Program-made: the position numbers and the translations under genes
Notes under the pieces: generated by a model
What the model was told of the DNA's origin: nothing
Databases searched by the model: none
Seen by the model: only the letters and a program-made list of their open reading frames with translations
DNA from: Amyelois transitella
Taxonomy: Eukaryota > Arthropoda > Insecta > Lepidoptera > Pyralidae
Reading direction: 5' to 3'
Assembly (NCBI RefSeq): GCF_032362555.1
Contig: NC_083505.1
Coordinates: 1,913,501-1,977,500, forward strand
Length of the DNA: 64,000 bases
Part shown: positions 12,541 through 62,117 of the stretch, one piece after another
Layout: each line of letters starts with the position of its first letter
Numbering within the stretch: the stretch's first letter is position 1

Positions 12541-13597
12541 TCAAATATTCAAGAGCGTACGAGTACTTGTAATAAAGTATTTAAGTTCTGTAAAAAAAAA
12601 ATTTTCAACATCATTTTGTATCACCTATACATCAGTGTACTTGTAATTTTAAACGTCAGTTCTGTGCAAACACTTTCTTGTCCGCTTCAGCTTATAGCTT
12701 CCACCACTAGCAGTCACTCACGCGCCGCGTGGCTGCCGCTTTCACGACGTGGCCCTCACACACACACTCACAGAGGAATGCCCACTAATAATAAACCTTA
12801 TTATAAGAGCCCTAAGAGCGAAACCTTGAGTTTATATTTAGACATGTGTGTCTTTATGTTACGGAGATTTAGTATAAAGCACATTATTTATAGTTGTTAT
12901 TATTTATAGTTTGTTTTCGTTACATACTATGTTACTATGATTTCCTCATAATTCGTAATTTTGTACTGTTTACTTTGCATTTAAGTATTTATTCTTATAA
13001 GACTGTAAACGTGCGTGTCTGAAATTTTTAAAGTTTTTAAATAAACATATTTACATATTTTTTTTTATTTATAAACAGTTATTGGTATTTTGAGTATAAG
13101 AAGAGATTTGAGTCCTGCATGACATCTCAAATAAATTCTGATTTATGATGTGGTAATTTCCAAATATGGTAATATTTAATTTAACAAAAAAAGAACCATT
13201 TTCCTTCTCCCAGATATCTCTTTGACCCGGCTCTAAAGTCTGCGATCTGTATGCAAAGCAAAATATTATTGTTTTGCGATTCCGCAGCAGACGTGGGTTT
13301 AAATTCCAAGAACTTAAAATAAACATTCTACTTTGTGTCATTATTATGTATAGTTATAATCGATTAAATATATATATTGTTGTGTAGATTAGGTACATAT
13401 TACAACTGGCGCCTATTACTATGAAAATATAAAAAAAAAAACAATAATTTTAATAACATTCTAGTTCTAGTAAGAATAATTTTGCAAAATCTAATTCTGC
13501 CCATTTTATAAAAAAAAAAATAATGAAGAAAAATAAGTATTTGGTAATTCCTATACATGAGGATTCGAACGGGCATGTTACTTCACTTTATTGTCGA
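12541..13597. other. Unannotated intergenic stretch
   Basis: Mostly AT-rich. About 12715-12780 is a short GC-rich patch (CGCGCCGCGTGGCTGCCGC) with a CA run. An open frame at 13069-13341 (-) has no recognisable domain and is not called. Confidence 0.4.
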
Positions 13598-13804
13598 CTA
13601 GAGGTCGCCCGCGACTTCGTCCGCATGGAAACCCTATCAATCCCGCGGGAACTCTGGGATAAAAAGTAGCCTATGTGTTATTCTGGGTCTTCAGCTACCT
13701 ACATACCAAATTTCATGGTAATCGGTTCAGTAGTTTTTGCGTGAAAGAGTAACAAACATCCATACATCCATACAAACTTTCGCCTTTACTTAATAGTAGT
13801 AGGA
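13598..13804 (-). mobile_element. Hel-A Helitron-like element
   Basis: CTAG at 13598-13601 after A, GGA at the other end before T (13805). Nearly identical to 10704-10900 and 62889-63092, so probably recently active. Confidence 0.75.
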
Positions 13805-14089
13805 TTTGTTTTGTAATTAAAACAATGTGGCACCATTTCCGTTGAATAGGTATATCTTATCACAATCGCAAGCGTTAAGAGCAACTGTGATATCAACCTG
13901 ATTACAATACGATGCATGATAATTATATGCGATTATTTTGTCCCATTTATCAAGACCTCAGTTTCAACCTTCATCACTATATTTCGCAGTTTCAGTTTTC
14001 CACGTCACGTCGTCGTGTCATTTGATCTGTGACGGCGAGGTCATCGACACGTCTGTCAAAATAGTCAAGTTAGATGCAACGGGTGTTAA

Positions 14090-14350
14090 GCGCTGGTTGC
14101 AGCGGCGAGCGGCGAGGCGACCTTGCGTGCCCGAGCCCTCGCGCGGCCGCCGACGTCACGCGGGGGCGCGCCGGTGACGTCACGCGCCGACCTCGCCGTC
14201 ACTCGCTGTGCACGTGAACACCACGCGCCGGCACGCGCTGGCTGCGTGATCACTGCCCCGTCATTGGCCGCCGCAGCCGCGCCGACCGCTCCCATTGGCC
14301 GCCCCCCGCCCGCGCCCCGCACCGGCACATGCTTCGTGCCGCGGCGACTC
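14090..14350 (+). promoter_or_regulatory. GC-rich promoter region of the KLF gene
   Basis: Long GC/CpG-rich block just upstream of the KLF start codon. It contains CGACGTCA (14151-14158, near-CRE), TGACGTCA (14175-14182, perfect CRE), the E-box pair at 14211-14227, and inverted CCAAT boxes ATTGG at 14263-14267 and 14294-14298. No strong TATA box; the transcription start is not resolved. Confidence 0.65.
14211..14227 (+). promoter_or_regulatory. Carbohydrate-response-element-like E-box pair
   Basis: CACGTG-AACAC-CACGCG: two E-box-like halves separated by exactly 5 bp, one base off the ChoRE consensus bound by Mondo/ChREBP-Mlx. In Drosophila, cabut is a known sugar-induced target of Mondo-Mlx, so location and spacing fit. 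Binding is inferred. Confidence 0.5.
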
Positions 14351-14484
14351 GCAGAGCGGTTTATTCGTCTGTCGACCGCTTACCGAACCACACGGCTCCA
14401 AAGAGCTTAAGCGCGCGGCGAAAACTCAAGTTTTGTGAATTAAAAGAAAGTTTTTTTCCATTGAATGTTATTGAACTGATCAAA

Positions 14485-15705
14485 ATGTCTACTATACTTG
14501 AAGTTTGTGGACCTCTCTCACCACCATCGACGCCTCCGTTGTTTGAACACAAAGTGAGTGTCTCAGTCAGTTCCGGATAGTTTCTAGTTAAAACTTTAGA
14601 ATTTGAAATTAAATTAAAAATATTTCAGCAATATCTATTTAAATAAAAATTAAAAGAAAAATAACAACGCCATTTATGCAATTGAAAGTTTGGTAAGAGA
14701 GCGCGGCGCGATCACGCATAGCGCGCGTGCTCCGCGAAGTTAGCGGCCGTTCACTTATGTGCATCCGTCTTTGTCCCACAGGTCGAGTTACCTCTGAAGA
14801 AGGCTGCAATGAAGCGAGCCAGGGAGTCGCCACCCCCGAGTAGTGGCTTAGTCACTCCCCAGCCTTCAGACTCGGAGGGCGAGGACGAGTTCAGCAAACG
14901 CTCCCGGTGCGAACTGGAGCGACTGCTGCTCACCACGCCACCGCCGGAGCCTTGCCGGCCCTCCGTCATCATGCGGGCGAACAAGGACGGCACCTGCAGC
15001 CCCGTCCAGGCAGCGCCGCCCAAAGACATGAACATTTTGAAAACTCTGAAATTCAAAATGAATCGCGGCCATAGTTATTCACAAGTGAAATATATCGCGA
15101 CCCAAAATCAAAGTGTTCCCATTTCTGAACCCGTCACCCCCATGAAAACTGAGGAAGCGCGGGTTCCCTCCCCGCACTCCGAAAGTCAACCCAAGCCGGC
15201 GAAAGAGGAGCAACGCGTACCGCAGGTGAGCCCTGTGTCTGCGGCCCCCGGCTGGGTGCCTTTGGCTCCGAGGCCCGCTCCCTCCATCATCGTCCCCGGG
15301 GCGTTACTTCCGACCACAGCTCTGTGGTTAGTGGCGCCAGCACCCGCCGCAAGAAGACGTCTTTACGAGTGTTCACATCCTGGTTGCGGCAAAAATTACT
15401 TCAAATCTTCCCACTTGAAAGCTCATGCCCGCACGCATACTGGCGAGCGGCCCTTCAGATGCGCGTGGCCGGGCTGCGAGCGCAGGTTCTCGAGGTCCGA
15501 TGAGCTCTCGAGACACAAGCGCACGCACACAGGCGAGAAGAAATTCGGTTGCCGCGTTTGCAATCGCCGTTTCATGCGCTCCGACCACCTCGCTAAGCAC
15601 GTTAAGAGACACGCCAAAGAAAGGGCTCCTCCGGCCCCAGTTCTCCGCCTGCTGCCGTCGCCGCCCATGACCGTGCCGGTGCAACCCGTTGGGCCGGCAC
15701 AGTGA
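14485..15705 (+). CDS. cbt: KLF10/11-type (cabut) zinc-finger transcription factor
   Basis: Coding exons 14485-14553 and 14782-15705 join in phase 0 across a 228-bp intron with GT (14554) and AG (14781) ends, giving 330 residues. The N-terminus is [15 protein letters not shown]; the middle is proline/serine-rich with [11 protein letters not shown] near residues 86-95. Three C-terminal C2H2 fingers follow: C220/C225/H238/H242, C250/C255/H268/H272 and C280/C283/H296/H300, with linkers HTGERPF and HTGEKKF. Finger residues SSHLKAH, SDELSRH and SDHLAKH, with [17 protein letters not shown], are hallmarks of KLF10/11. Such proteins bind GC/CACCC boxes in the nucleus, usually as repressors; in flies cabut links sugar sensing, circadian output and growth signalling. 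The ATG at 14485 has A at -3 and starts the family-like sequence; an in-frame ATG at 14329 would add 52 residues. KLF class near certain, cabut orthology likely. Confidence 0.92.
14554..14781 (+). other. KLF intron
   Basis: Donor AAA|GTGAGT, acceptor TTGTCCCACAG|GTC; phase 0. Needed to link MSTILEVC...FEHK to [17 protein letters not shown]-rich first part, GC-rich near 14700-14750. Confidence 0.85.
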
Positions 15706-20794: not shown

Positions 20795-21150
20795 ATTGGG
20801 ATTAGGCGATGGGCTAATTAACTAACTGGCTAATTAGCTAACCTGTCACTATTCGAATTTCAATTCTATCATTAAGCCATACAGCTGAACATGTCCTTTA
20901 GGTCTTTTCAAGACTGTTAGGCCCGTCTACCCCGCAAGGGATATAGACGTGGTTATATGTAGGCATGTATATAACTAAAGGTATTTGAAATATATCATAC
21001 ATATGGTCACGTCTATATCCCTTGCGGGGTAGACAGACAGGCCACGTTCAGCTATTTGGCTTAATGATAGAATTGAGATGCAAATAGCGACAGGTTGCTA
21101 GCCCATCGCCTAAAAAAGAATCCCAAGTTTGTAAGCCTTTCCCTCACAAT
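20795..21150. repeat. Tail-to-tail inverted SINE-1 pair
   Basis: + copy 20795-20975 and - copy 20994-21150 face each other across about 20 bp, so a transcript could fold into a stem of roughly 150 bp. The upstream 20475-20790 is AT-rich with nothing recognised. Confidence 0.85.
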
Positions 21151-36870: not shown

Positions 36871-36907
36871 CATACACATTCGTTTGATTACCGACGCTTT
36901 ATACATA

Positions 36908-37338
36908 GAATGTAATCTTCTGAATTTACGAGAAACCTCTTATTTAGCTACAGAAGAATGTAATCTTCTGAATTTACGAAAAACTTCTAGTTTAGATACA
37001 GTGAATGTAATCTTCTGAATTAACGAGAAACCTCTTGTTAAGCTACAGTGGAATGTAATCTTCTGAATTGACGAGAAACCTTCAGTTTAGATACAGTAGA
37101 ATGTAATCTTCTGAATTTACGAGAAACCTCTAGTTAAGATACAGAAGAATGTCATCTTCTGAATTTACGAAAAACCTGTAGTTTAGATACAGAAGAATGT
37201 CATCTTCTGAGTTAACGAGAAACTTCTAGTTTAGATACAGTAAAATGTCATCTTCTGAATTGACGAATAACTTCTAGTTTAGATACAGTATAATATAATC
37301 TTCTGAATTTACGTGAAACATCTAGTTAAGATACAGGA
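36908..37338. repeat. 48-bp minisatellite, nine units
   Basis: Units begin at 36908, 36956, 37003, 37051, 37099, 37147, 37195, 37243 and 37291. Core GAATGTAATCTTCTGAATTT then ACGAGAAACCTCTAGTTTAGATACAG, about 85-95% alike. Non-coding in register. Confidence 0.95.
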
Positions 37339-40565: not shown

Positions 40566-40639
40566 GGCCCATTAGCTCAGTTGGTTAGAGCGTCGTGCTA
40601 ATAACGCGAAGGTCGCGGGTTCGATCCCCTCATGGGCCA
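40566..40639 (+). tRNA. tRNA-Ile (anticodon AAT)
   Basis: 74 nt. Acceptor stem GGCCCAT / ATGGGCC, A box TAGCTCAGTTGG (40573-40584), anticodon loop CTAATAA with AAT at 40600-40602 in a 5-bp stem (TCGTG/CGCGA), B box GGTTCGATCCC (40618-40628), discriminator A. No intron. A T5 run at 40647-40651 is the Pol III stop. A near match to other animal tRNA-Ile(AAT) genes; reads AUU, and AUC/AUA after A34 is edited to inosine. Confidence 0.97.
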
Positions 40640-40651
40640 CGATTCCTTTTT

Positions 40652-56751: not shown

Positions 56752-58445
56752 ATTCATATTCATATTTATTCATATTTTTCATATTCATATTTATTTATTT
56801 CTTAACAATACAATTGTGTTGAAAATTTTGTAAAATAATACCACCACCATCCCAATAGCATTACAAATTAAAATACATAAAATCGAATTAAAATCAAACA
56901 TAGAAAAGTGGATAAATGTCAAACAAAATAAAATAGTAATAATATGTCAATGTCGTAATCGTGGGTCGGTAATCGTATTTCGCTGTGTCGTCGCTATTTG
57001 CGATTTAAATAATCATCTAAGGAGTAGAAGCACTTTTTCAATAAATAAATTTTTAATTTGTCAATAAAATGCTTTGTATACAGCAAGTCCTTCAAGTCCA
57101 TGGGCAGTCTATTAAAAAACTTTACTACCTGGTAATGAGCACTGTGCTTCACTACTAATAACCGGGCTACTGTACCTGTAACAAAATCTTTTCGTCTACT
57201 TGCTTCTCTTTTAAGTCGTTCCTCATGAGTCTCATAGTCATTAACATTTTTAGCGAAATGTGACAGCAATACCAAAATATATAAACTTGGTACAGTTAAT
57301 ATACCCAAACGAATGAAGTGGTCTTTGCACGACTCTTGTTGACGTATACGTGTTATAATTCTTATTGCCCTCTTTTGCATAACAAATGCCCTTTTCACGT
57401 TATAATCGTAACTAGCCCCCCAAAACAGTATGCTATACCTTAATTTAGATTCTACTAAGGCATAGTAGACCAATTTAAGGTGTTCCGTACCTACTTCTTC
57501 CCTGAGACTTCTTAGTACATAGCAAGCCGAACTTAGTTTTGCTTCAATATCGTCAAGCTCGTACTTCCAATTTAACAGGTAATCAACATGGACACCCAAA
57601 AATTTTACACTTTTAACTAAAGGCAAAGGCTTATTATCCAGAGAAATGCTAATACTTTCCTGATTTTGTGTATTCGTTTTTATTAAAATTAAATTCGTTT
57701 TGGAAGCATTGACAACAAGGCCATTTGCATTAAACCAATCGCTAACAGTTTTTAGGGAATTGTCCACAGATTGTTTTAGATTTAACATATTGTCGGCTGA
57801 TATTATTATATTAGTGTCATCTGCGTACAGTATTAATTTAATTGATTCTGGATCAGTGGCGGAGGTGAATTCAACTAAATCATTCACAAATAAGGTGAAA
57901 AAGACAGGTCCCAGAATACTACCTTGCGGTACTCCTGTTTTGATATTTGATACACGTGATTTATAAACTTTCTCACAATTATCTCGATCCGAACCAGTTG
58001 AACCTGTTATCTGCACAAACATTCGCCTATTTTGCAAATATGATCTGAAAAGTTGTAGGACTTTACCTCTTATCCCATAATGAAATAGTTTTTCTAGCAA
58101 CAATTCATGATTCACTGTGTCAAAGGCAGAACTTAGATCCAAAAAGACGCCAGAAACATTTTTTTTGTTATTTATAGCACTAGTAATATCGCTAATAAGA
58201 GCATTTATTGCATCCAAGGTTCCTACTCCTCTCTGGTATCCATATTGCCTTATATTTAATATACTATTTAAGTTTAAATGACGTACTAATCTGGATTTCA
58301 TTGTCTTTTCTAAAATTTTGGACAATATAGGCAGAAGTGAAATGCCTCGATACATTTTTGGATCCAGTTTTGACCCCTTTTTATGTATGGGAATTATCTT
58401 AGCCAACTTTCAAAACATCCTTAGCTAATAAAAGCAGTGAAAAAA
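56752..58445 (-). mobile_element. 5'-truncated non-LTR retrotransposon
   Basis: From a TATTCA-rich microsatellite tail (56752-56805), through an AT-rich 3' UTR and the RT frame, to a break near 58445. No endonuclease domain. Length and tail fit normal 5'-truncated LINE insertion. RT style suggests the CR1/L2/Jockey group; exact clade not decided. Confidence 0.8.
56994..58406 (-). pseudogene. LINE reverse transcriptase, 5'-truncated and frameshifted
   Basis: 470-codon frame. Order: IIPIHKKGSK and YRGISLLPILSK (residues 5-30), FLDLSSAFDTVNH (motif A, 88-100), GVPQGSILGP (motif B, 158-167), YADDTN (catalytic YADD, 194-199), then thumb and C-terminus with LRYSILFWG. All three catalytic Asp positions are present. 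The frame has no natural ATG: it opens at TTG after a TGA (58410-58412). The preceding LAKDVLKVG lies in the next frame, so one base was lost at about 58404-58410. The endonuclease half is absent. Synthesis of DNA at a nicked target is the family role; this copy is dead. Confidence 0.85.
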
Positions 58446-58772: not shown

Positions 58773-58975
58773 GGACAAATTACACAGATTGAGTTAGCCT
58801 CGAAGTAAGTTCGAGACTTGTGTTACGAGATAATAATTTAACGATACTATATTTTATAATAAATACTTATATAGATAAACATCGAACTGAACTTTCTCAT
58901 CATGCCCTGACCGGGATTCGAACCCGGGACCTCCGGTGCCACAGACAAGCGTATTACCGCTAGGCCACAGAGGCC
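58773..58975 (-). repeat. SINE-2 (tRNA-derived) copy 1
   Basis: Minus strand: GGCCTCTGTGGCCTAGCGG (A-box region), CCCGGGTTCGAATCCCGG (B box), CAGGGCATGATGAGAAAG, then body to AATTTGTCC. A Pol III-type retroposon, not a tRNA: no matching acceptor or anticodon stems. Confidence 0.85.
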
Positions 58976-59811: not shown

Positions 59812-59850
59812 ATCAAAATGTCTTAACATGTGAATAATGTCATAACATGT

Positions 59851-60121
59851 AAATACTCTGTCTACTCCTCCGAGGATGGCACTTGATTTTATGTCCGTAT
59901 ACAGTAAATACTCTGTCTACTCCTCCGGCGATGGTACTTGATTTTATGTCCGTATACAGTAAATACTCTGCCTACTCCTCCGGGGATGGTACTTGATTTT
60001 ATGTCCGTATACAGTAAATACTCTGTCTACTCCTCAGGGGATAGTACTTGATTTTATGTCCGTATACAGTAAATACTCTGTCTACTCCTCCGGCGATGGT
60101 TCTTGATTTCATGTCCGTGTA
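59851..60121. repeat. 55-bp minisatellite, five units
   Basis: Units start at 59851, 59906, 59961, 60016 and 60071 with AAATACTCTGTCTACTCCTC. Each unit holds CTCCGGGGATGGTACTTGAT and TTTATGTCCGTATACAGT, which parallels the LINE-L/SINE-1 tail. Confidence 0.95.
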
Positions 60122-61526: not shown

Positions 61527-62117
61527 TCCTACTACTATTATAAAGGCGAAAGTTTGTATGGATGTTTGTTACTCTTTCACGCAAAAACTACTGAACCGAT
61601 TACCATGAAATTTGGTATGTAGGTAGCTGAAGACCCAGAATAACACATAGGCTACTTTTTATCCCAGAGTTCCGCGGGATTGATAGGGTTTCCATGCGGA
61701 CGAAGTCGCGGGCGGCCTCTAGTAATATTATAAATGCGAAAGTCTGTTAGGGTGTCAGTATGGATGTTTGTTACTCTTTCACGCAAAAACTTCTGAACCG
61801 ATTACGATGAAATTTGGTATGTAGGTAGCTAAACACCCAGAATAACATATAGGCTTTATATCCCGCGGGTAGGGTAATAGGGTTTCCATGCGGACGAAGT
61901 CGCGGGCTGCCGCTAGTATTATAAATGCGAAAGTTTGTGAGTATGTCAGTTTGGATGTTTGTTACTCTTTCACGCAAAAACTACTTAACCGATCACGATG
62001 AAATTTGGTATGTAGGTAGCCGAAGACCCAGAATAACATATAGGCTACTTTTTTATTGCGGAGTTCCCGCGGGATTGATAGGGTTTCCATGCGGACGAAG
62101 TAGCGGGCGGCCTCTAG
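61527..62117 (+). mobile_element. Three tandem Hel-A elements
   Basis: Head-to-tail units 61527-61722, 61723-61916 and 61917-62117, each ending CTAG after the GGACGAAGTCGCGGGC (or GTAGCGGGC) block. Only the first has a TC start, after A (61526); the last is followed by T (62118). Units 2 and 3 start directly at AATATTATAAATGCG-like sequence. Confidence 0.8.

Follow-up and report, generated by a model that had tools for sequence, protein, structure and literature searches.

The window analysed here is a stretch of 64,000 nucleotides from the moth Amyelois transitella (contig NC_083505.1, assembly GCF_032362555.1), and it carries a predicted zinc-finger gene on the + strand. From the open frame and a splice model, coding exon 1 was placed at 14485..14553, with its start codon at 14485. 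Coding exon 2 was placed at 14782..15705 by the splice model, Pfam and PDB chain matches, and it encodes three C2H2 zinc fingers and the stop codon. The predicted intron (14554-14781) is of the GT-AG type, with the donor GT at 14554 and the acceptor AG ending at 14781; this acceptor is a choice, as in-frame acceptors a few bases downstream also keep the frame open. Spliced in this way, the frame runs unbroken for 330 residues and closes at 15705. Another ATG in the same frame, at 14329, lies 52 codons upstream of 14485 and may provide an N-terminal extension or an alternative start.

What kind of protein does this gene encode? The C-terminal fingers are of the KLF type, as Pfam zf-C2H2 and related models match them and three fingers were counted by eye. 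The PDB chains matched by the protein include KLF4, KLF5, and KLF10. With the full protein as query, KLF5 scored 130 bits over 89 residues, KLF4 115 over 88, and KLF10 104 over 61 (its chain is 72 residues long), while the non-KLF finger proteins Aart, ZNF568, and WT1 total higher than the KLFs. When two fingers alone were used, KLF5 scored 106.7 over 62 residues and KLF10 104.5 over 57. Per aligned residue, KLF10 tops the KLFs, whereas KLF5 exceeds KLF10 by total in both searches. Exon 2 was also compared with the viral_contigs collection, where 7 pattern stretches were obtained and no relative was among them. The first finger of the predicted protein presumably resembles that of KLF10 as well. 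Judging from the fingers, the KLF chain scores, and these first-finger features, the gene is best read as encoding a KLF-class zinc-finger protein of the cabut/KLF10-11 kind, which agrees with the first-pass annotation of the gene as cabut/KLF10.

In the proximal promoter of this gene, a sequence read and a spaced-pair scan located a ChoRE-like pair at 14211..14227 on the + strand. The pair consists of CACGTG, the spacer AACAC, and CACGCG (CACGTGAACACCACGCG), that is, two E-box-like hexamers exactly 5 bp apart, and 11 of its 12 hexamer positions are equal to CACGTG-N5-CACGTG. The pair lies 257 bp before the predicted ATG at 14485, or 101 bp before the upstream ATG at 14329 if that is taken as the start. 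The first-pass annotation had described an 11-of-12 match to the ChREBP/Mondo-Mlx element with the exact 5-bp spacing, about 260 bp before the start codon, and all of this was reproduced on rereading. Its designation of the pair as ChoRE-like was also sound; by sequence, spacing, position, and neighbours, 14211-14227 is a very good candidate.

How does the moth pair compare with known ChoREs? ChREBP-MLX is described as a heterotetramer on two E-boxes five nucleotides apart, and natural elements are described as imperfect (PMC11900861). Measured against CACGTG-N5-CACGTG, the moth pair has one mismatch, while Txnip-a has 2, Txnip-b 4, Tug1 ChoRE1 3, and a zebrafish reporter element 2. The moth pair is thus closer to the perfect form than any of these four working elements, among which Tug1 ChoRE1 is reported to work in repression (PMC7681008). 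Tug1 ChoRE2, in which CACGTG stands in a ChoRE-like setting, is a non-working element with 4 mismatches; altering its spacer was reported to be without effect (PMC7681008). The half-site CACGCG is an accepted one, since Txnip ChoRE-b, which is bound by MondoA/MLX, has it as the 3′ half (PMC2791861) and the glucose-responsive zebrafish reporter contains CACGCG-N5-CTCGTG (PMC7515633). A looser consensus, CAYGYG-N5-CRCRTG, has also been published (PMC7681008). The moth pair misses a full match to it by one mismatch, located in CACGCG. The full match is not defining in practice, because all four scored working elements miss it too, with 2, 3, 3, and 1 mismatches.

The strict form of the pair is rare. 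Within one mismatch of CACGTG-N5-CACGTG, 14211-14227 is the sole N5 pair in the 64 kb. When CACGTG-Nk-CACGTG was scanned over the 64 kb with k from 0 to 20 and at most one mismatch, matches were found only at k=5 and k=15, the latter consisting of the E-box of the 14211 pair and the next CACGCG. At least one one-mismatch N5 pair arose in 147 of 20,000 dinucleotide shuffles of 14041-14400 (0.74%) and in 17 of 8,000 shuffles of 13485-14484 (0.21%); these counts, like those of the chain tests below, were back-calculated from printed fractions. An excess of CACGTGNNNNNCACGNG over the window (15 matches with at most two mismatches versus a mean of 4.83, with 0 of 100 shuffles reaching 15) was set aside, because the matches represent 8 places, 7 of which were scored on both strands, and because a whole-window shuffle is blind to uneven GC.

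It was found that the pair belongs to a longer array. A hexamer scan, the consensus matches, and a chain score outlined five CACGTG-like hexamers at 14200..14248 (no strand assigned), namely, CACTCG at 14200, CACGTG at 14211, CACGCG at 14222 and at 14232, and TGCGTG at 14243. The steps between them are 11, 11, 10, and 11 bp, or about one helical turn each. The outer two hexamers are equal to CACGTG at just 4 of 6 positions. One-mismatch matches to CAYGYG-N5-CRCRTG number 10 across the window, and three of those, at 14200, 14211, and 14232, are in the cabut promoter, where 0.10 were expected; at least three such matches occurred in 2 of 6000 shuffles. With steps of 10-11 bp, 1 of 6000 shuffles reached the chain score of the array; the figure was 8 of 6000 for steps of 11 bp only and 6 of 1500 for any step of 6-31 bp. 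This test was post hoc, as its score was designed with the locus already known.

Is such a pair common in the genome? The window's own assembly (327,366,114 bp in 33 contigs) was scanned for CACGTGNNNNNCACGCG, which is CACGTG-N5-CACGCG. There are 29 occurrences, and the reversed pattern has 8, a ratio that is a rough guide only, as the reversed control has fewer CpG steps. At the genome-average rate, about 4e-5 occurrences of CACGTGNNNNNCACGCG are expected per given 484 bp, a rate that a GC-rich promoter exceeds. All 29 places, grouped into 28 loci, were compared. Among them, the cabut site is locally the richest in GC (0.61, followed by 0.54) and also has the best phased-array score, 9, although this score was devised post hoc, with the array already known, and tends to be higher in GC-rich DNA. 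The next best phased arrays among the CACGTGNNNNNCACGCG copies are at L008 (G000:C4:10342758), with a score of 8, and L002 (G000:C1:4888822), with a score of 7. Around the other 28 occurrences, at most three open frames of at least 100 residues per locus were read by eye, and some of these occurrences may be in exons.

The array is followed by two CCAAT boxes. Motif scanning placed an inverted CCAAT box (ATTGG) of the NF-Y type at 14263..14267 on the − strand, 14 bp past the array, and a second inverted box at 14294..14298 on the same strand, 31 bp past the first. By count alone, two boxes are not significant (P 0.11). Induction of Txnip, like the efficient recruitment of MLX to its promoter, is reported to depend on two CCAAT boxes (PMC2791861), a requirement that suggests a role for the CCAAT pair at moth cabut. 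The Txnip promoter of the same report resembles the moth promoter in having elements made of two E-boxes 5 bp apart, CACGCG as a half-site of ChoRE-b, and two nearby CCAAT boxes. However, the Txnip boxes are described as lying between two ChoREs in opposite orientations, while those of moth cabut are both inverted and come after one array. Moreover, Txnip is stated there to be vertebrate-specific.

The motif scan also found a full CRE palindrome, TGACGTCA, at 14175..14182 on the + strand, overlapping the CACGCG that starts at 14181. TGACG half-sites number 7 in 14001-14484 versus 1.71 expected, and 2 of 1500 shuffles had as many, a figure uncorrected for the nine motifs scanned. The TGACGTCA at 14175 accounts for two of the seven, and the cluster lies mostly upstream of the array. 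Near the CRE, there is a direct repeat of GCCGnnGACGTCACGCG at 14146 and 14170. The TGACG cluster and the GCCGnnGACGTCACGCG repeat suggest a putative CREB/ATF input to the cabut promoter. In the dopaminergic neurons of flies, cabut is listed among the genes regulated by activity (PMC7515954), and the CRE cluster may serve such regulation in the moth.

Mondo-Mlx control of cabut has been reported in other species. The first-pass annotation had pointed to fly cabut as a Mondo-Mlx sugar target, which is borne out by the literature: fly cabut is given as a Mondo-Mlx target (PMC3616910, PMC8530363), and it is among the most reduced genes in the mlx mutant fat body (PMC3616910). Mammalian Klf10 is cited as a ChREBP target in PMC8410083. 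Thus, both the Drosophila and the mammalian gene would encode a sugar-induced KLF10-type factor (PMC3616910, PMC8410083), as proposed here for the moth. The closest case is that of Bombyx, where less Cabut mRNA and a less active Cabut promoter are reported after knock-down of Mondo or Mlx, and where ChIP-PCR is reported to detect both factors at that promoter (PMC10970504). The gene is of the same kind, the insect order is presumably the same, and the binding is direct. The sugar-cabut circuit in a moth was therefore already published in 2024, and the idea is less new than the first-pass annotation held. A literature search that covered articles without their supplementary files found no ChoRE sequence reported in a lepidopteran cabut promoter. 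The Bombyx evidence, as presented in PMC10970504, is at the scale of the promoter, while the present window gives base-level coordinates for this sugar-sensing link.

As a candidate from one genome, 14211-14227 is probably the core of a working Mondo-Mlx ChoRE in the proximal cabut/KLF10 promoter. This reading is based on the low mismatch, the parallel with the Txnip CCAAT boxes, the fly mlx data, and the Bombyx Cabut data, and it is the most likely one because Bombyx Mondo and Mlx act on the Cabut promoter (PMC10970504). I infer the use of 14211-14227 by Mondo-Mlx, a role for the extra hexamers, help by NF-Y, and the transcription start. When glucose-6-phosphate rises, Mondo-Mlx heterodimers would bind CACGTG and CACGCG, one helical turn apart, as a heterotetramer. 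The weaker hexamers at 14200, 14232, and 14243 may allow additional complexes to bind or the occupied position to slide, and NF-Y bound at the CCAAT pair may aid recruitment, as in Txnip. The induced Cabut would then repress genes of lipolysis and gluconeogenesis. If the element is conserved across Lepidoptera, the sugar-KLF10 circuit could be traced by sequence alone.

Could the hexamers instead be separate bHLH or bHLH-PAS sites, with the 5-bp spacing being incidental? The chief candidates are Met-Taiman, which mediates the juvenile hormone response, and CLOCK-CYCLE. Juvenile hormone response elements of Met-Taiman likewise have CACGTG and CACGCG hexamers; locust Met/SRC is reported to bind CACGTG at Mcm7 and CACGCG at Mcm4, and the same E-box is reported upstream of Bombyx Kr-h1 (PMC4207617). 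Both kinds of hexamer are present in the cabut promoter, and Drosophila Cycle is said in PMC10970504 to regulate Cabut. However, the Met-Taiman elements as described in PMC4207617 have one hexamer each and follow no N5 pairing rule, unlike the moth pair, and separate sites leave the exact N5 spacing and the 11-bp phasing unexplained. No report of cabut as a juvenile hormone target turned up in literature searches aimed at other questions. Independent bHLH sites are thus an unlikely account of the locus. A related possibility is that the CACGC (GCGTG) cores are response elements of the AhR-ARNT type, tying cabut to immunity or xenobiotics. Mosquito KLF10 is reported to be downstream of AhR with a GCGTG motif upstream of the gene (PMC8994780), and 14001-14484 contains six GCGTG cores. 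This number is within what chance would give (3.79 expected, P 0.18), and AhR-ARNT would account for neither CACGTG nor the spacing, which makes this the least plausible of the readings and a very improbable one.

Another possibility is that the pair is a chance by-product of the GC- and CpG-rich promoter. CACGCG alone is unsurprising, because the cabut promoter is GC-rich (0.66-0.71) with a CpG o/e of 1.3-1.6; four copies are present in the promoter neighbourhood versus 1.76 expected (P 0.10), and two of the four are tails of CRE-like GACGTCACGCG repeats, a direct repeat present in the promoter. Given four CACGCG nearby, the probability that one lies exactly 11 bp from the E-box is about 0.055, and the looser consensus CAYGYG-N5-CRCRTG finds at least one one-mismatch match in 9.8% of shuffles. 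The sequence GTGACGGCGAGGTC forms a perfect 14-nt inverted repeat (14029-14042 / 14189-14202); it was dropped as a cruciform or paired site, as 9.5% of shuffles yield a perfect repeat of this length, and it illustrates how easily patterns arise here. On the other hand, the strict one-mismatch N5 test gives P 0.002-0.007, Mondo-Mlx is known to target this gene in other species, and CACGTGNNNNNCACGCG is rare genome-wide (29 in 327 Mb). Coincidence therefore seems improbable as the whole explanation. Taken together, the spacing and the phase of the hexamers favour a putative Mondo-Mlx site over Met/SRC, Cycle, AhR, and chance.

A wider reading of the promoter builds on the Mondo-Mlx ChoRE. The phased platform of five half-sites, the paired NF-Y boxes, and the CRE cluster might together form the insect equivalent of the Txnip module, with a separate origin. 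Two or more Mondo-Mlx heterotetramers could fit on such a platform, and cabut might then act as a coincidence detector of sugar and cAMP or stress. This composite reading is speculative and, on balance, doubtful. The comparison with vertebrate Txnip also suggests a rule, namely, that the combination of ChoREs with paired CCAAT boxes may be a signature of Mondo-Mlx targets in insects as well.

Several other features were observed in the window. An open frame of 471 residues on the − strand (56994-58409) has a reverse transcriptase domain (Pfam RVT_1) and is probably a LINE-type element. Tandem arrays are present at 36901-37336, 59849-60118, and 61556-62117, with units of 48, 55, and 191 bp, respectively. 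Compared by eye, the 191-bp unit resembles the reverse complement of an element that lies shortly before cabut, at about 13601-13810. Loose N5 matches with at most three mismatches number 48 in the window, and 26 of them, by manual count, are CAAGGG or CATGGG followed by GACGTG or the reverse complement; these 26 correspond to CAAGGGATATAGACGTG, slightly varied or reverse-complemented (for example, at 20935, 22655, and 62247). Presumably, they belong to a dispersed repeat whose sequence resembles a weak E-box pair. Two tRNA genes were predicted, a tRNA-Ile (aat) at 40566-40640 and a tRNA-His (gtg) at 58903-58974.
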